From Streptomyces sp. SLBN-31 (GTDB lineage: Bacteria; Actinomycetota; Actinomycetes; Streptomycetales; Streptomycetaceae), in NCBI RefSeq assembly GCF_006715395.1, contig NZ_VFNC01000002.1:1240001-1304000 (forward strand): a stretch of DNA of 64,000 bases, in the 5' to 3' direction. This document shows positions 36,938 to 45,823 of the stretch, in pieces. The position numbers were made by a program, and so were the translations under genes. A model generated the notes under the pieces. It saw nothing but the letters and a program-made list of their open reading frames with translations, was not told the origin of the DNA and made no database searches. Position 1 is the stretch's first letter; each line of letters opens with the position of its first letter.

Positions 36938-37873
36938 ATGCGTCTGGTCCGTACGCCCGCTCCCGCGCCCGTGCCCCCGGTAGCCGCGCCCGTTGCCCCG
37001 GCCGCGCGATCCGCCGGGCCGAGTCCGGCAGGCGTGGTCGCGATGGTCGGCAGTGGCCTGTCCAACCAGACCGGCGCCGCGATCGGTTCCCTCGCCTTTC
37101 CCGTGCTCGGGCCCGTCGGGGTCGTGGCGGTACGCCAGTACGTCGCCGCGATCGTGCTGCTGGCGGTGGGCCGGCCCCGGCTGCGGACGTTCACCTGGCG
37201 GCAGTGGCGGCCCGTGCTGGCGCTGGCCGTGGTCTTCGGCACGATGAATCTCTCCCTGTACAGCGCCGTCGGCCGAATCGGCCTCGGCCTCGCGGTGACC
37301 CTGGAGTTCCTCGGCCCCCTCACCATCGCCCTGGCCGCCGCCCGGCGCCGGGCGGACGCCTGCTGCGCGGCGATCGCCGCCGCGGGTGTCGTCACGCTGA
37401 TGCGGCCGCGGCCCTCCACGGACTACGTCGGCATGGGCCTGGGTCTGCTGGCGGCCGCCTGCTGGGCCTCGTACATCCTCCTCAACCGCACCGTCGGCCG
37501 GCGGCTGCCCGGCGCCCAGGGCTCGGCCGCCGCGGCCGGTGTCTCGGCCCTGCTGTTCCTGCCGGTCGGCGTGGCCGTCGTGCTCCGGCATCCGCCGGCC
37601 GCCACTGCGCTGGCCTGCGCCGTGGCGGCCGGTGTGCTCTCCTCGGCGGTGCCCTTTCTGGCCGACCTGTTCACCCTGCGCCGGGTCCCCGCACCCGCGT
37701 TCGGCCTGTTCATGAGCGTCAATCCGGTCCTCGCGGCGGCCGTGGGCCGGGTGGGGCTCGGCCAGCGCCTGGGCTGGGCCGAGTGGGCGGGCATCGGCGC
37801 GGTCGTCGTCGCCAACGCCCTGAGCATCCTCGGCGCGGGGCGTTCCGGAAGCGGTGGCGTCAGGCGCCGGTGA
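36938..37873 (+). CDS. EamA-family (RhtA-like) exporter
   Basis: This is a 311-residue transporter with ten predicted membrane segments in two EamA halves, like the threonine/homoserine exporter RhtA. Characteristic stretches are GAAIGSLAFPVLGPVGVVAVRQ, LALAVVFGTMNLSLYSAVGRI and LGQRLGWAEWAGIGAVVVANALS. The start is ATG 36938. Its 3' end overlaps the convergent helR gene by 14 bp. The substrate is unknown; relatives export amino acids or other small metabolites. Confidence 0.88.
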   Translation: MRLVRTPAPAPVPPVAAPVAPAARSAGPSPAGVVAMVGSGLSNQTGAAIGSLAFPVLGPVGVVAVRQYVAAIVLLAVGRPRLRTFTWRQWRPVLALAVVFGTMNLSLYSAVGRIGLGLAVTLEFLGPLTIALAAARRRADACCAAIAAAGVVTLMRPRPSTDYVGMGLGLLAAACWASYILLNRTVGRRLPGAQGSAAAAGVSALLFLPVGVAVVLRHPPAATALACAVAAGVLSSAVPFLADLFTLRRVPAPAFGLFMSVNPVLAAAVGRVGLGQRLGWAEWAGIGAVVVANALSILGAGRSGSGGVRRR

Positions 37874-40034
37874 GGACGACGAGTTGCCGGGTGGCCCGGG
37901 TCATCGCGACGTAGTGGTCGACCGCTCCTTCGATGCCGTCGCCGAAGTCCTGCGGGTCGACGAGGACGACCAGGTCGAATTCCAGGCCCTTCGACAGCTC
38001 CGGTGTCAGGGACCGGACACGGGCCGTCGCCCGGAACCCGGGGTGGCCGATGACGCAGGCGATGCCTTCGGCGTGCGCGGCGAGCCAGCCGTCGAGGACC
38101 GGGTCGAGGTCTGCGAGGGAGCCGTGGACGACCGGGATGCCGGCGCTGCGGATGGAGGTCGGCACGTTGGCGTCCGGGAGCACTGCCCGGATGACCGGCT
38201 CGGCCTCGGCCATCACCTCCCCGGGAGTGCGGTAGTTGATGTTCAGCGACGCCAGTTCGATCCGGTCGAGCCCGATCCTCTCCAGCCGTTCCCGCCACGA
38301 CTCGGCGAAGCCGTGCCGGGCCTGGGCGCGGTCCCCGACGATGGTGAAGCTGCGCGAGGGACAGCGCAGCAGCAGCATCTGCCACTCCGCGTCGGTCAAC
38401 TCCTGGGCCTCGTCCACGACGATGTGCGCGAACGGACCGGCGATGAGATCCGGTTCGGCGGTGGGCAGTTCGGCCTCGTCGACCAGGCTGACCCGGGCGT
38501 CCTCGCCGCGCAGCATCCGCACCAGGCCCTCACCGTCGTCGCCGTCGGAACCGGAGTCCGCCGCGGCCTGGATCAGGTTGTCGACGACCTGCTCCATGCG
38601 CTCGCGCTGGGCGGCCAGGATCGCCTCGCCGCGGTGCTCGCGGCGTGCCGACTCCGGGTCGCCGAGGCGCTGCCGCGCCGCGTCCAGGAAGGGCAGGTCG
38701 GACACCGTCCAGGCCTGCGGGGACTCCTTCCGCTGCAGCCTGCGGACCTCCTCGGGGCCGAGCCAGGGGGCGCACCGGCGCAGGTAGGCGGGGACCGACC
38801 AGAGGTCCGCGACGAGGTCCGCCGCCTCGACCAGCGGCCAGGCTCGGTCGAACGCTGCACGCAGTTCCCGGTTCTGCCGCAACGACCGGTGCAGCAGGTC
38901 GGGCGGGACATCCTCGCCGTCATGCTTGTCCGCCAGGATCGTCAGCAGTTCGCGCCAGACCTGCTCGCGGGCCTCGTTGTGCGGGGTGCCGGGCTCCGCC
39001 GCCTCGAACGCCTCCGCCCAGTCGTCGGGGCTCAGCCGGACGTCGGACCAGTGGGTCTCGACGGTCATTCCCCGGGTCGGGAGCTCCTCGTAGAAGCGGA
39101 CGGCCGCCTCGACCGCGCCCACCAGTTCCGCGGACGCCTTGAGGCGGGCCACCTCGGGGTCGTTCTCCACGGCCGCCGTCGCGCCCTCGGCGACGAGGTC
39201 CCGCAGGACACAGGTCCGCACGCCCTCCTCGCCGAGGCTGGGCAGGACGTCGGAGACGTAGGCCAGGTAGGGCCGGTGCGGGCCGACGAACAGGACGCCG
39301 CCCCTGCGGTGGGAAAGGCGGGGGTCGGAGTACAGCAGGTAGGCGGAGCGGTGCAGGGCGACCACGGTCTTCCCGGTGCCGGGCCCGCCGTCCACGACGA
39401 GGGCGCCGCGGGAGCCCGCCCGGATGATGGCGTCCTGGTCGGCCTGGATGGAGCCGAGGACGTCCCGCATCCGGTCCGATCGGTTGGTGCCGAGGCTGGC
39501 GATGAAGGCGGACTGGTCGTCGAGCGCGGCGTGCCCGGCGAACGCGTCGGGGGTGAACACCTCGTCCCAGTAGTCGCTGATCCGGCCGCCGGTCCAGCGA
39601 TACCTGCGGCGGCTGGCCAGCCCCATCGGCCGGGCGTGGGTGGCGCCGAAGAACGGTTCGGCGGCGGGCGAGCGCCAGTCCACCAGCAGCCGGCGCCCGG
39701 TGCTGTCCGTGAGGCCGAGCCGTCCGACGTAGACGGGCTCGGTGTCGTCCGCGCCGACCATGCGGCCGAGGCACAGGTCGAGGCCGAAGCGGCGCAGGGC
39801 GCGCAGCCGGGCGGTCAGCCGGTGGATCTCGGCGTCCCGGTCCATCGCCTGCCGGCCCAGGCCGCCGGGCGCCCTGCGTTCGGCGTCGAGGCGGTCGGAC
39901 AGTTCGGCGATGGTCTCGTCGAGGCACGCGGCGATCGCCGCGAAGTGCTGCTCGTCATCGGCGATCAGCGCTGGGTCGGCTTTCGCGACCAGACGGTCGG
40001 ACAGGGCGAACGCACTGGCGGTCGCGGGGTTCAC
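37860..40034 (-). CDS. helR: HelR, RNA polymerase-protecting helicase-like ATPase (rifamycin resistance)
   Basis: This is a 724-residue HelD-like superfamily 1 motor protein. HelR displaces rifamycins from RNA polymerase and recycles stalled complexes. Features are an N-terminal helical arm (ADDEQHFAAIAACLDETIAELSDRL), YVGRLGL... LLVDWRSPAAEPFFGATHA, Walker A GGPGTGKTV near residues 216-223, Walker B IVVDEAQELTDAEWQ, and LTPELSKGLEFDLVVLVDP. The C-terminal YVAMTRATRQLVVL is the UvrD-like motif VI. GTG 40034 gives the family's normal start. A rifamycin-associated element lies 462 bp upstream with a glycosyltransferase relic between, so helR was probably the second gene of a rifamycin-inducible unit. 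Confidence 0.92.
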   Translation of the reverse strand: MNPATASAFALSDRLVAKADPALIADDEQHFAAIAACLDETIAELSDRLDAERRAPGGLGRQAMDRDAEIHRLTARLRALRRFGLDLCLGRMVGADDTEPVYVGRLGLTDSTGRRLLVDWRSPAAEPFFGATHARPMGLASRRRYRWTGGRISDYWDEVFTPDAFAGHAALDDQSAFIASLGTNRSDRMRDVLGSIQADQDAIIRAGSRGALVVDGGPGTGKTVVALHRSAYLLYSDPRLSHRRGGVLFVGPHRPYLAYVSDVLPSLGEEGVRTCVLRDLVAEGATAAVENDPEVARLKASAELVGAVEAAVRFYEELPTRGMTVETHWSDVRLSPDDWAEAFEAAEPGTPHNEAREQVWRELLTILADKHDGEDVPPDLLHRSLRQNRELRAAFDRAWPLVEAADLVADLWSVPAYLRRCAPWLGPEEVRRLQRKESPQAWTVSDLPFLDAARQRLGDPESARREHRGEAILAAQRERMEQVVDNLIQAAADSGSDGDDGEGLVRMLRGEDARVSLVDEAELPTAEPDLIAGPFAHIVVDEAQELTDAEWQMLLLRCPSRSFTIVGDRAQARHGFAESWRERLERIGLDRIELASLNINYRTPGEVMAEAEPVIRAVLPDANVPTSIRSAGIPVVHGSLADLDPVLDGWLAAHAEGIACVIGHPGFRATARVRSLTPELSKGLEFDLVVLVDPQDFGDGIEGAVDHYVAMTRATRQLVVLTGA

Positions 40035-40228
40035 GGCAAGGGCTCCGATCTGGAGGGTTACGGCGATGGACGCGCGGGATGGGACCGGGAGCGCCGCGTG
40101 AGGTGGCCCCCCGGGGGCGTCACCGGCCTGGTCGCCGGGGTGTGCGGTTGTCGAGTGCCGGGCTCCGGACCGGCCGTCGCCTGGTGTGCCAGGCCCCAGT
40201 CCGGCGATCACGCGAGGTGCCGTTCCGC

Positions 40229-40436
40229 TCAGCCGAACGAGTCGGCCAGCAGCTTTGTGGCGGTGGCCGCTCCCTCGGTGCGGACAGTGCCGGCCACGGT
40301 GGCCGCTCGTTCGCGGCCTCCGGGGTCAAGGCCGTCTTGAGGACGGCCGAGAGGCGCGTGCCTACGGGCCGAACGGCACCGCCGCCATCGGCTGGGCGAC
40401 CCCGCGCGATCCATACGTCGACCACACCACACGCAC
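40229..40436 (-). pseudogene. Internally deleted GT1 glycosyltransferase relic, probably a rifamycin glycosyltransferase
   Basis: GTG 40436 follows a GGGGGAG ribosome site and opens a frame reading VRVVWSTYGSRGVAQPMAAV, the N-terminus of glycopeptide/macrolide-type glycosyltransferases (MRVLxSTYGSRGDVxP). After about 24 codons the sequence jumps to the C-terminal end of the same family: TRLSAVLKTALTPEAANER and then, after a one-base shift, ATVAGTVRTEGAATATKLLADSFG and a stop at 40231-40229. Some 330 central codons are gone and at least two frameshifts follow. It lies between the RAE and helR on the helR strand, so an ancestral rgt-type resistance gene is the best guess. Family assignment is by pattern only. 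Confidence 0.65.
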
Positions 40437-40495
40437 TACGCGACTCCCCCTTTCCGCAGGTCCTGGCCTCAGGCCGACGATTGTGCGGCATGACG

Positions 40496-40515
40496 GGGGC
40501 CTTGCCGCAAGCCCC
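40496..40515. promoter_or_regulatory. Rifamycin-associated element (RAE)
   Basis: GGGGCCTTGCCGCAAGCCCC is the reverse complement of GGGGCTTGCGGCAAGGCCCC, the RAE sequence known upstream of actinomycete rifamycin resistance genes. The near-palindrome has flanking G (40495) and C runs that extend the arms. On the minus strand the order is RAE, glycosyltransferase relic (start 60 bp away), then helR. Confidence 0.85.
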
Positions 40516-40530
40516 CCGGTGCGCTATAAG
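40502..40530 (+). promoter_or_regulatory. Vegetative-type promoter overlapping the RAE, pointing away from helR
   Basis: TTGCCG (40502-40507), a 17-bp spacer and TATAAG (40525-40530) form a near-consensus promoter whose -35 lies inside the RAE. Transcription would start near 40537, at the edge of a strong hairpin. No intact gene lies downstream on this strand; the next gene is the convergent araC-like gene. On the opposite strand TTGCGG, also inside the RAE, precedes a weaker CACAAT with a 19-bp spacer. Confidence 0.5.
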
Positions 40531-40538
40531 TTGAGAGT

Positions 40539-40564
40539 GGCAAGGAGTGGACGAACTCCTTGCC
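40539..40564 (+). terminator. Hairpin at the very start of the RAE-promoter transcript
   Basis: GGCAAGGAGT (40539-40548) pairs perfectly with ACTCCTTGCC (40555-40564) around a 6-nt loop, followed by TTCGTCGTTTCC. It would form the first 2-28 nt of the plus-strand RNA. It could be an attenuator, a stabilising 5' stem or a transcription stop. The following 40565-40772 shows no convincing gene; a 98-codon frame from GTG 40547 has no coding character. Confidence 0.4.
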
Positions 40565-40772
40565 TTCGTCGTTTCCGCGGGTCCTTCGGGGTCCGCGTCG
40601 AGGGCGGCACCTCAGCCCGTCGCGCGTCGTTCCAGCCCCTCGCCCGCAATGAGGCGGGGCCAGGACTCCCCACGCGGTCCTGGCTCCGGCCCTCGTCCGC
40701 CCCGTACGTCCGGCGCGCTGATCACAGGATGCGCGGACGCCCACCGGTCTGTCGTTGGCACACGGTCCACAC

Positions 40773-43349: not shown

Positions 43350-44585
43350 ATGCCCATGCGCTCCTCGTCCGTCCTGCCCCGCATGTCCGCCGACGACCCC
43401 CAACTCGACGTCGCCGACGCGCTGTTGACGCTTCTGCGTGACGCCTCCACCGAACCCCGCCCCGACATCCAGCTGGAGGCGCTCACCCTTGCCGTGGCCG
43501 CGGATCTGCCCGTGCTGCTGTGGGGCGAGCCGGGTATCGGGAAGACCGCCGCGCTGACTCAGCTGGCCGCGGCCCTCGACCTTCCGCTGACCACGGTGAT
43601 CGCCAGCGTGCACGAGCCGTCGGACTTCTCCGGGCTGCCCATCGTCGGCGACGACCCGGCCGAGCAGGGCGTCCCGATGGCCCCGCCGGACTGGGCGGTG
43701 CGCCTGGTGCGGGCCGGCCGCGGGCTGCTGTTCCTGGACGAGCTGTCCACCGCGCCGCCGGCCGTCCAGGCCGCCCTGCTCCGGCTGGTGCTGGAGCGGC
43801 GTATCGGGGCCCTGCGGCTGCCGCCCGGCGTGCGGATCGTGGCCGCAGCCAACCCGCGCTCCTCGGCGGCCGACGGCTGGGAGTTGAGCCCGCCGCTGGC
43901 CAACCGGTTCGTGCACCTGCAGTGGACCCACGACCACGAGGTCGTCGTACGCGGCCTGGGCGGGACCTGGCCCCGGGCCACCCTGCCGCGGCTCGACCCG
44001 CACGGGCTGCCGGAGGCCGTGGACTTCGCGCGTCGGGCGGTCTGCGGGCTGCTGACCGCCCGTCCGGCCCTGGTGCACCGGCTGCCCAGCAGTGAGACCC
44101 GCCGGGGCGGCCCCTGGCCCTCACCACGGAGCTGGGAGATGACGCTGCGTCTGATCGCCTTCGCGACCGCGGCCGGCTCCTCCCGAGACGTGCTGTCGCT
44201 GCTGGTCAGAGGGACGGTGGGAGACGGTCCGGGGCTGGAACTGCTGGCGAGCGTGGACCGGATGGACCTCCCGGACCCCGAGGACCTGCTCGCCGATCCG
44301 GCCGCCGCCGTCCTGCCCGAGCGGGGGGATCTGCGCCAGGCCGCCCTGGACGGTGTGGTGGCCGCGGTCCGCGCCCGCCCGGACAAGTCCCGCTGGGACG
44401 CGGCCTGGGAGCTGCTCGTGCGGGCGGTGCGGACCGGTGCCCCTGACCTGGTGGTCGTACCCGCGAGCACGCTGGCCTCGCTGCGTCGGGAGGACTGGGA
44501 CGTACCGGCGTCCATCGAGGAACTCGCCGGAGTGGTGTCCCTGTCCCGGCGCGCGGACGAGGCGGCCGCCAGGGTGGCCCGATGA
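43350..44585 (+). CDS. MoxR-type AAA+ ATPase
   Basis: This is a 411-residue AAA+ ATPase of the MoxR/AAA_5 type. It has Walker A LLWGEPGIGKTAAL, Walker B GLLFLDELSTAPPAVQ, sensor 1 RIVAAANPRSSAADGWEL and an Arg finger region PPLANRFVHLQW. The C-terminal lid region is followed by a helical extension. The start is ATG 43350 with AAGGTGAT upstream. Its stop overlaps the next start (ATGA), so it is coupled to a metallopeptidase-VWA protein. MoxR ATPases act as chaperones with VWA partners, often for metal-centre insertion or complex activation. Confidence 0.9.
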   Translation: MPMRSSSVLPRMSADDPQLDVADALLTLLRDASTEPRPDIQLEALTLAVAADLPVLLWGEPGIGKTAALTQLAAALDLPLTTVIASVHEPSDFSGLPIVGDDPAEQGVPMAPPDWAVRLVRAGRGLLFLDELSTAPPAVQAALLRLVLERRIGALRLPPGVRIVAAANPRSSAADGWELSPPLANRFVHLQWTHDHEVVVRGLGGTWPRATLPRLDPHGLPEAVDFARRAVCGLLTARPALVHRLPSSETRRGGPWPSPRSWEMTLRLIAFATAAGSSRDVLSLLVRGTVGDGPGLELLASVDRMDLPDPEDLLADPAAAVLPERGDLRQAALDGVVAAVRARPDKSRWDAAWELLVRAVRTGAPDLVVVPASTLASLRREDWDVPASIEELAGVVSLSRRADEAAARVAR

Positions 44586-45823
44586 GCGGGGAAGCGCCGG
44601 GGGCCCTGGACGAGGCCAAGCTCTTCACCGCCCGCCTGCAGGCCGCCCGCGCCCGCCCCTATCTGGCCACGGCCCTGTTCGCCCTGCACACCGTCGCGTC
44701 CCGGACGGTGCCGACGATGGCCGTCGACCGGCACTGGCGCTGCTACGTCTCACCCGGGTTCGTGGACCGCACGCCGGTCGAGGAGTTGGCCGGAGTGTGG
44801 GTGCACGAGGTGTCCCACCTGCTGCGCGAGCACCACCGGCGCAGCGACCGGGTCGCGAGGGAGCGCGGGCTCACCGGTCCGGCCGAACGGCTGCGGATGA
44901 ACATCGCCGCGGACTTCGAGATCAACGACGACGTGTACGGCGACGGGCTGCCCCGGCCCGAGGGCGCCGTCCATCCCGGGATCCTCCAACTGCCCACGGG
45001 GCAGCTGATGGAGGACTATCTGCGTCAGTTCCGGCTCGGCCCGCACACCGACGGCCTGGCCTGGCTGGACTGCGGCAGCGGCGTCGACGGGCGGGAGCGG
45101 GAGTGGGACCTGGGCCCGGAAGGCGCGCACGGACTGAGCGAGCAGGAGCGGGACGCCGTCCGCTTCCGGGTGGCGCAGGGCATCAAGGGCCGCCCCGGCC
45201 ACGCCCCAGAGCAGTGGCGGCGGTGGGCGGAGGAGGCGTTCCACCCGCCGCAGCCGTGGCGGGAGTTGCTGGGGGCGGCGGTGCGCTCGGCGGCGACCGC
45301 ACCGGGTGCGGGCGAGGACTACTCCTACGGTCGTCCGGCGCGGCGCTCGGCGGGACTGTCCGGCGTGGTGCTGCCCGCTCTGCGGCGCCGGCCGCCCCGC
45401 GTGTGCGTGGTCATCGACACCTCCGGCTCGGTCAGCGACGCCGAACTGGGCAGCGCGCTGCTGGAGGTCGCCGCGATCTCCCGTGCCGTGGGCGGCCGTC
45501 GGGACCTGGTCACCGTCGTGCCGTGCGATGCGGCGGCGCGGGTCGCGCACCCCCTGTGCCGCGCGGAGGGCATCCCGCTGCTCGGCGGCGGTGGTACGGA
45601 TCTGCGCACCGGCTTCGCCAAGGCGCTGCGGACGCGTCCGGGCCCCGATGTAGTCGTGGTCCTGACCGACGGGCAGACCCCCTGGCCCGAGGAGCGGCCG
45701 GCCTGCCGGACGGTGGTGGGCCTGTTCCCCCGTCCGGACGACTCCTGGGACGAGGACGATCCGGAGTACGTGCCGGACACCCCGCCGACGTGGGCCCGCG
45801 TGGTCCACATCGGTCCCGGGTGA
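44582..45823 (+). CDS. Metallopeptidase-like / VWA protein (DUF2201-type)
   Basis: This is a 413-residue protein. The N-terminal half has a zincin motif HEVSHLLREHH (HExxH) in a putative metallopeptidase domain. The C-terminal half is a VWA-like domain with an intact MIDAS: DTSGS (VCVVIDTSGSVSDAEL), Thr in GGGGTDLRTG, and Asp in VVLTDGQTPW. It is translationally coupled to the upstream MoxR ATPase (4-bp overlap). The layout suggests a VWA adaptor with a possible protease that works with the ATPase. The natural substrate is unknown. Confidence 0.9.
   Translation: MSGEAPGALDEAKLFTARLQAARARPYLATALFALHTVASRTVPTMAVDRHWRCYVSPGFVDRTPVEELAGVWVHEVSHLLREHHRRSDRVARERGLTGPAERLRMNIAADFEINDDVYGDGLPRPEGAVHPGILQLPTGQLMEDYLRQFRLGPHTDGLAWLDCGSGVDGREREWDLGPEGAHGLSEQERDAVRFRVAQGIKGRPGHAPEQWRRWAEEAFHPPQPWRELLGAAVRSAATAPGAGEDYSYGRPARRSAGLSGVVLPALRRRPPRVCVVIDTSGSVSDAELGSALLEVAAISRAVGGRRDLVTVVPCDAAARVAHPLCRAEGIPLLGGGGTDLRTGFAKALRTRPGPDVVVVLTDGQTPWPEERPACRTVVGLFPRPDDSWDEDDPEYVPDTPPTWARVVHIGPG

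Follow-up and report, generated by a model that had tools for sequence, protein, structure and literature searches.

Why does an intact helR gene lie about 480 nucleotides (nt) downstream of a rifamycin-associated element (RAE), with pieces of another gene between them, and does the RAE still control it? The question is raised by a 64,000-nt stretch of DNA from Streptomyces sp. SLBN-31 (contig NZ_VFNC01000002.1, positions 1,240,001 to 1,304,000 of the forward strand; hereafter the window), part of a 9.47 Mb genome in 3 contigs. We conclude that this helR is very probably the former second gene of an operon composed of an RAE, an Rgt-like glycosyltransferase gene and helR, from which the enzyme has been deleted while RAE control was kept. 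The initial annotation of the window had proposed an ancestral unit of this kind, with the modifying enzyme lost and target protection kept, and the intact operons that we found in relatives support it.

Remnants of a glycosyltransferase gene lie between the RAE and helR

The RAE occupies positions 40496..40515 of the minus strand, as first proposed, and matches at 20 of 20 letters the 20-mer that we used as the query for the element and fixed ahead of viewing the sequence. Two further RAEs with no more than one mismatch exist elsewhere in the genome. Shuffles of the window gave an expectation of 0.02 matches at up to three mismatches, and the sole other match in the window is the same palindrome read on the opposite strand.

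Reading on from the RAE, the sequence GGGGGAG directly precedes a GTG at 40436-40434, which confirms the ribosome site and the start of the peptide VRVVWSTYGSRG described in the initial annotation. Three segments of an Rgt-like gene follow on the minus strand. The first (40382..40436) corresponds to nt 1-55 of the gene and is continuous with the leader; leader and segment together (40515-40382) are 81-86% identical to three loci of our survey, L047, L185 and L039. The second (40353..40380) is a 27-28 nt match to gene nt 156-183, 89% identical to L047 (E 1.9e-4); among relatives examined later, identity is 92.6% in L260 (E 6.7e-6) and 88.9% in L257, L258 and L262. The third (40228..40354) corresponds to the C-terminal end, gene nt ~1087-1219, with 76-78% DNA identity to L047, L185 and L039. 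The joint between the first two segments is in frame, and the third lies in a different frame from the first. The deletion has left a micro-open reading frame of 24 codons (40362..40436, minus strand), running from the GTG to a TAG at 40364-40362. Because three separate gene segments remain, we read the relic as the product of two deletions, of ~0.1 and ~0.9 kb, and not of one fusion. The C-terminal relic of the same gene that the initial annotation reported is thus present, but it is out of frame, and the single deletion joining it to the N-terminal piece has to be replaced by two.

Both ends of the relic align at the DNA level to an intact glycosyltransferase gene. When the spacer between the RAE and helR was compared with 12 intact genes, the best local scores were 46 (5′ end) and 65 (3′ end), values that 0 of 100 dinucleotide shuffles attained in either case. 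A 33-amino acid (aa) piece of the relic had no family match in a profile search.

The helR gene itself (37860..40034, minus strand) follows the relic and is intact, as had been claimed. It encodes 724 aa from a GTG start at 40034 to a TGA stop at 37862-37860 with no internal stop, and the sequence GGAG (40043..40046, minus strand), 8 nt 5′ of the GTG, reads as its likely ribosome site. In profile and homology searches, for which the query carried one extra N-terminal codon, the product matched NCBIfam NF041254 (motor_HelR) at 1276.8 bits against a cut-off of 750, over positions 1-706 of the 706 in the profile. Its nearest named relatives are from Streptomyces, with the highest identity, 92%, to S. 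panaciradicis, and among solved structures the closest in sequence is the HelD of entries 6yxu and 6yys. According to PMC8655204, this HelD is the Mycobacterium smegmatis protein, and RAEs cluster on the HelR branch.

The intact operon and recurrent loss of the enzyme

In a typical intact locus, the glycosyltransferase gene starts ~78 nt after the start of the RAE and encodes a product of ~400-430 aa with the N-terminus VRVLLSTYGSRGDV or similar. The best NCBIfam model for the intact proteins is NF000354, rifamycin-inactivating glycosyltransferase Rgt, matched over nearly the whole length. Nine proteins were scored, four located before helR and five behind other RAEs, and all nine (473.5-687.8 bits) fell under the curated cut-off of 800. 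For this reason we call the lost enzyme "Rgt-like", with rifamycin glycosylation as a predicted activity; the rgt identity given in the initial annotation holds for the best-matching family and is softened to this extent. The best Pfam domains are EryCIII-like_C and Glyco_transf_28, and in sequence the solved structures that come nearest are those of GtfB, GtfA and GtfD, which are glycopeptide enzymes.

We classed helR loci, to which we gave L numbers, by what lies between them and the RAE. Among 150 Streptomyces genomes, 99 have helR at E 1e-100 and 97 could be classified, leaving G017 and G028 (partial or split genes) unclassified. An intact gene was present in 28 of the 97, a relic in 23, and the RAE lay directly before helR in 39; the remainder comprised five unexplained gaps, one rox gene in place of the enzyme and one contig edge. 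A first classing of 80 named loci had given 25 direct, 23 intact, 23 relic, 6 gap and 3 other. Of 180 helR loci, 7 had the same sequence as another across helR residues 50-600, and dropping them left 173 non-redundant loci, of which 49 hold an intact gene and 64 have the RAE directly before helR. The gene of ~1.2 kb that the initial annotation expected to find between RAE and helR in relatives therefore exists, in 49/173 loci and 28/97 Streptomyces genomes. Six close homologues added later (L257-L262), from the nine other genomes that scored best out of 392, all have an open full-length gene before helR; all six align to segments 1 and 3 of the window relic and four of the six to segment 2. 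At L116 and L146 (S. anulatus NRRL B-2873; G005) the order is RAE-rox-helR, with a rifampin monooxygenase gene in the glycosyltransferase position.

The relics retain different parts of the gene: codons 1-81 in L064, 304-384 in L021, 351-417 in L133, 1-160 plus 225-413 in L014 and 240-408 in L033, while the window keeps the ends. This points to several separate deletions. We built a helR tree of 167 rows, with 6 of the 173 loci set aside (the two RAE-rox-helR loci, relic L033 and contig edges L029, L038 and L078). A minimum of 28 changes between intact and not intact is needed on it, where 56 of 164 inner branches are weak, and 17 among the 95 rows of the genus; these counts rest on an unrooted tree, on which gain and loss are indistinguishable by counting, and horizontal transfer may be the source of some of the changes. 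The window helR belongs to a clade supported at 98 and 95 (Shimodaira-Hasegawa-like approximate likelihood ratio test, quick tree) together with the intact loci L041, L043, L044 and L185, and the same clade holds relic L014, which is cut differently from the window. These comparisons support recurrent loss of the modifying enzyme, with target protection kept, in Streptomyces and related families, as opposed to an event peculiar to the window strain.

The reverse history would have RAE-helR as the original arrangement, with the glycosyltransferase inserted several times and the window later losing its insertion. Plantactinospora, Frankia and several Nonomuraea do have an RAE close to helR with no recognisable glycosyltransferase, rox stands in place of the glycosyltransferase at two loci (L116, L146), and unrooted change counts cannot separate gain from loss. 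We nevertheless consider this history unlikely. Members of the Streptosporangiaceae and Thermomonosporaceae carry relics too (L053, L064, L066, L081, L086, L101, L104 and L114), and an intact copy is found in Actinomadura craniellae (L110). The enzyme and helR also co-evolve, their distances being correlated in 49 intact loci (Mantel r 0.48, 0/999 permutations). In the window, moreover, loss of the enzyme is certain because gene pieces remain.

The relics are debris and helR is predicted to remain under RAE control

In 48 intact genes, mismatches to the intact 5′ end fall on the three codon positions as 155:124:306. In the relics (29 of 43 could be aligned) they fall as 262:281:228, a count that takes in some letters past the deletion joints and is thereby diluted toward equal thirds. 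Eight loci whose RAE-helR spacer is 224 nt long and aligns colinearly sum to 79:83:59. Because the third-position excess is absent, we read the relics as debris that drifts without coding constraint.

We propose the following course of events. The two internal deletions removed ~1 kb of the glycosyltransferase gene and left as filler the leader, the first 18 codons, the 28-nt middle scrap and the last ~40 codons. With rifamycin present, the RAE promoter would transcribe through this ~400-nt filler into helR. If published findings on RAE-linked helR in S. venezuelae and M. abscessus apply here, HelR would then pull rifamycin-stalled RNA polymerase off the DNA and dislodge the drug. Modification of the drug would fall to rox and rph, each of which has its own RAE elsewhere in the genome.

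Besides the dilution of the codon count, several points weigh against this reading. The rifamycin response of the window helR is a prediction from the DNA. An untranslated leader of ~330 nt follows the micro-open reading frame and could cut helR expression, and a separate promoter may lie near helR, as our scan covered one promoter type only. The host rph, a frame of 865 codons, scored 782.5 bits against a cut-off of 999 on its best model (NF041857, rifamycin phosphotransferase), having been scored from its first 454 aa only, hence below the whole-protein cut-off. Finally, L038, the S. panaciradicis locus with the closest helR, reaches a contig edge, and the 510 nt upstream of its helR hold no glycosyltransferase similarity better than E 0.15. 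By eye, this stretch (L038 1-510, 5′ of helR) contains repeats.

Could helR instead have left RAE control and be expressed constitutively from a promoter of its own, with the RAE as a leftover? The ~480-nt gap between RAE and helR start would allow this, but we regard it as improbable: the RAE is letter-perfect and its flanking boxes stand at consensus while the coding part has decayed, and no promoter-like or terminator-like site was found in between (the consensus promoter scan, negative, covered one promoter type). An Rfam search returned nothing at E 1.

Some features of the relics would fit retention of the N-terminal piece as a functional leader, whether an upstream open reading frame, a translational coupler or an RNA element. 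Eight loci with 224-nt spacers (L012, L016, L042, L113, L134, L141, L157 and L164) carry a 5′ remnant of ~47 codons, which in five of the eight ends at a stop 4 nt short of the start of helR; 28 of the 29 relics that aligned have no stop within 35 codons, with the window as the exception; and 5′ pieces are kept in 41/43 relics, 3′ pieces in 10/43. This explanation is highly improbable, given that the relics lack a third-position excess, that similar spacers vary in length (217, 225, 230, 233, 240 and 243 nt), that the 64/173 loci with the RAE directly before helR do without a relic, that open frames say little in GC-rich DNA, where stops are rare, and that any deletion sparing promoter and leader necessarily begins past the first codons. 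The 224-nt-spacer loci are scattered on the helR tree, a pattern suggestive of transfer or of a single old deletion.

The remaining rifamycin resistance genes

The three host RAEs with at most one mismatch lie before helR, rox and rph, the rox and rph copies having one mismatch each. The host rox scored 878.9 bits against the rifampin monooxygenase cut-off of 800. A search of the host genome gave no Rgt relative at E 1e-90, the best Rgt-model score being 125.7 bits. A second rox-like gene (G000:C2:370060-371478) is 67% identical to the RAE-linked rox, and the genome scan placed no RAE (up to three mismatches) beside it.

We also classed 71 RAE loci, 9 of them already among the helR loci, by their first recognised gene: 33 begin with rox, 16 with rgt, 12 with rph and 10 with helR. 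Some of the 16 rgt-first loci lead on to helR, and L250 is a relic before rph. An Rgt-like 5′ remnant lies between the RAE and rph in 7 of 12 testable loci (L207, L218, L221, L234, L238, L250 and L251). Among the 33 rox loci, the 10 with long gaps were tested, and one of them (L213) holds such a remnant; each remnant score was reached by 0/100 shuffles. The remnants suggest that an Rgt-like lead gene formerly stood before rph as well. The rph gap of the host itself (L003) gave no remnant (67/100 shuffles).

Does another inactivating enzyme compensate for the one lost? The rph gene is present in 5/28 intact, 13/23 relic, 18/39 direct and 2/5 gap genomes (Fisher p 0.0055, intact vs rest), so it is rarer where the enzyme is kept (5/28 vs 33/67), and genomes with neither rox nor rph number 5/28 among the intact and 1/67 among the others (p 0.008). 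The association of rox alone with enzyme state was null (p 0.80). When independent pairs on the helR tree were used to correct for descent, the median p was 0.29 for rph and 0.5 for rox-or-rph, and compensation is for that reason treated as a lead only. An Rgt relative occurs elsewhere in 18 of the 67 genomes without the enzyme before helR.

Away from this locus, two adjoining plus-strand frames at 43350-45823 of the window resemble, by eye from their translations, a MoxR-type ATPase with its VWA-type partner.

The RAE lies within a conserved module of about 90 bp

In a gapless profile of 160 non-redundant helR loci (13/173 were left out, having no RAE at up to four mismatches within 1800 nt or insufficient flank), conservation around the RAE spans about -34 to +49, well past 20 bp. 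The RAEs of rox, rph and rgt share the module, with at least 9 of 12 box letters in 70 of 71 loci; the exception, L211, apparently has one extra base before CAGAAT. Beyond the helR set, RAE places comprised 30 automatic and 40 hand-chosen loci (one of the latter already in the collection), with others left out, for example a tandem two-mismatch set in G040. As the 221 loci hold nine places twice, the main counts were redone on 212 distinct loci, where TATA is present at -13..-10 in 211, AANNTA at -17..-12 in 209 and CANAAT at 30-35 in 199.

On the sense side, we propose a -35 element TTGCGG (40505..40510, minus strand; RAE positions 5-10, 97-100% conserved in the 160 loci, position 9 at 92%) and, at a spacing of 19 bp, a -10 element CACAAT (40480..40485, minus strand). 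This putative TTGCGG-19-CACAAT promoter is both present in the window and conserved, with A31, A33 and T35 at 99-100% in the 160 loci and at 97%, 97% and 93% across 30 loci that represent other families of the class. On the antisense side, a proposed -35 element TTGCCG (40502..40507, plus strand) mirrors the sense box about window base 40506, and a proposed -10 element TAAGTT (40527..40532, plus strand) follows 19 bp from it; the corresponding sense positions -17, -16, -13 and -12 are at 99-100% in the 160 loci and at 90-100% in the 30 class loci, where the adjoining TA at -11/-10 drops to 80%. CANAAT (30-35) and TANNTT (-12..-17) thus occupy exact mirror positions about the palindrome centre at 9, each 19 bp from TTGCSG, and the positions of both boxes are 87-100% conserved in the class loci, with looser neighbours. 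The strand of each palindromic site was picked by its flanking boxes, which favours the boxes, although in the class set the picked strand agrees with the boxes at 7 or 8 of their 8 letters in 28/30 loci and the opposite strand at 5 at most. The geometry of the module is conserved.

Past the antisense box lies an inverted repeat, GGCAAGGAGT-6-ACTCCTTGCC (40539..40564, plus strand), with a predicted 10-bp stem, which we read as a hairpin at the start of an antisense transcript. A hairpin of at least 7 pairs is found in 197/212 distinct loci against 77.9 in shuffles (largest 86) and in 20/30 class loci against 9.6 (largest 12). At least four T in the 10 nt after the hairpin occur in 118/212 loci against 26.4 in shuffles (largest 34) and in 10/30 class loci against 2.3 (largest 4). 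The arms covary: of 203 loci, 147 have C-G and 39 have A-T at one pair, and the first arm shows 24 different 9-mers in the 30 class loci. In the pair counts the left arm was chosen as the best complement, which overstates pairing. Conservation of the letters ends just upstream of the hairpin region. In the window copy the T-rich tail (40565..40576, plus strand) is weak, and the terminator rule did not call the hairpin. When RNAalifold was run on 100 module copies it recovered the RAE hairpin alone, and the evidence for the upstream hairpin therefore comes from pair counts and the shuffle test.

We tentatively propose, as a possibility that is short of probable, that the RAE contains a -35 core shared by a mirror bidirectional promoter, with TTGCSG-19-CANAAT as a weak sense side and TTGCSG-19-TANNTT as the antisense side. 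Polymerase competition between the sides would sense the drug, an antisense RNA of ~30-40 nt would terminate itself, and genes would join the system through decay of an Rgt-like lead gene, as for helR and apparently rph. Rifamycin-bound polymerase, with or without an RAE-binding factor, would shift the balance between the promoters. That both boxes act as promoters and that the antisense transcript is self-terminating we infer from their letters and spacing.

Nearly even chances attach to the alternative that the RAE is the binding site of a rifamycin-responsive regulator, as papers suggest, with the -10-like boxes as parts of the regulator site. Conservation of the palindrome's outer GGG/CCC arms stands at 99-100%, beyond the need of two overlapping -35 boxes. 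In addition, steric overlap of two Bacillus subtilis promoters abolished induction (PMC12802891); for that reason the RAE cannot simply be the B. subtilis device, and a shared core may need a switching factor. Two observations speak for promoters instead: the mirrored boxes differ (CANAAT, TANNTT) yet each keeps A2 and T6, and the hairpin past one box keeps pairing while its letters change. An A at position 2 and a T at position 6 are typical of -10 elements. Equally possible is a regulator that directs polymerase to one side or the other.

Two other candidates were set aside. The nearly invariant TATAGC directly before the RAE was considered as a sense -10 element, but no -35 element lies at a usable distance, conservation stops immediately upstream of the hairpin, and in other families TATA varies while AANNTA stays. 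The upstream inverted repeat as a protein site is weakened by the covariation of its arms and by its loops, which are mostly 6-9 nt and range from 0 to 22.

Significance and comparison with known systems

How the RAE senses rifamycin in actinobacteria is stated to be unsolved in a 2022 review (PMC10719064) and a 2026 paper (PMC12802891). As judged from the aligned loci, the drug-response module exceeds the short published motif in both size and symmetry. With its two opposed -10-like boxes and antisense hairpin, the ~90-bp module would make the sensing question concretely and cheaply testable. That the enzyme is lost repeatedly while target protection stays identifies the dispensable layer of a two-layer resistance operon, and operon decay would be a route by which an inducible promoter is handed to the next gene. 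In the literature within our coverage, which did not extend to the original helR papers or the 2014 RAE paper, we did not meet RAE-enzyme-helR operons or the antisense side of the RAE.

Among known systems, the lost enzyme compares with Rgt (NF000354), the RAE-linked rifamycin glycosyltransferase: its intact relatives also stand directly behind RAEs and have Rgt as their best family match, although those tested fall under the cut-off, and the window copy is destroyed. The RAE-linked helR genes of S. venezuelae (SVEN_6029) and M. abscessus share with the window a HelR family protein and an upstream RAE, and differ in that the window has a decayed Rgt-like gene between the two. In mycobacteria, the RAE is reported to overlap the -35 element of a sense promoter, in work that leaves the mechanism open (PMC10719064; PMC12802891), and by its letters the window RAE would overlap a -35 element in the same way. 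M. smegmatis has a first, sense-directed promoter that starts ~20 bp before the RAE, whereas the Streptomyces module has the hairpin there and no conserved sense promoter was seen. The rifampicin alarm of B. subtilis helD/pps, as described in PMC12802891, likewise combines two opposed promoters with a HelD-type gene and a drug-modifying gene. There, the promoters converge about 39 bp apart, whereas the pair proposed here would diverge from a shared RAE core and its antisense product would end in its own hairpin.

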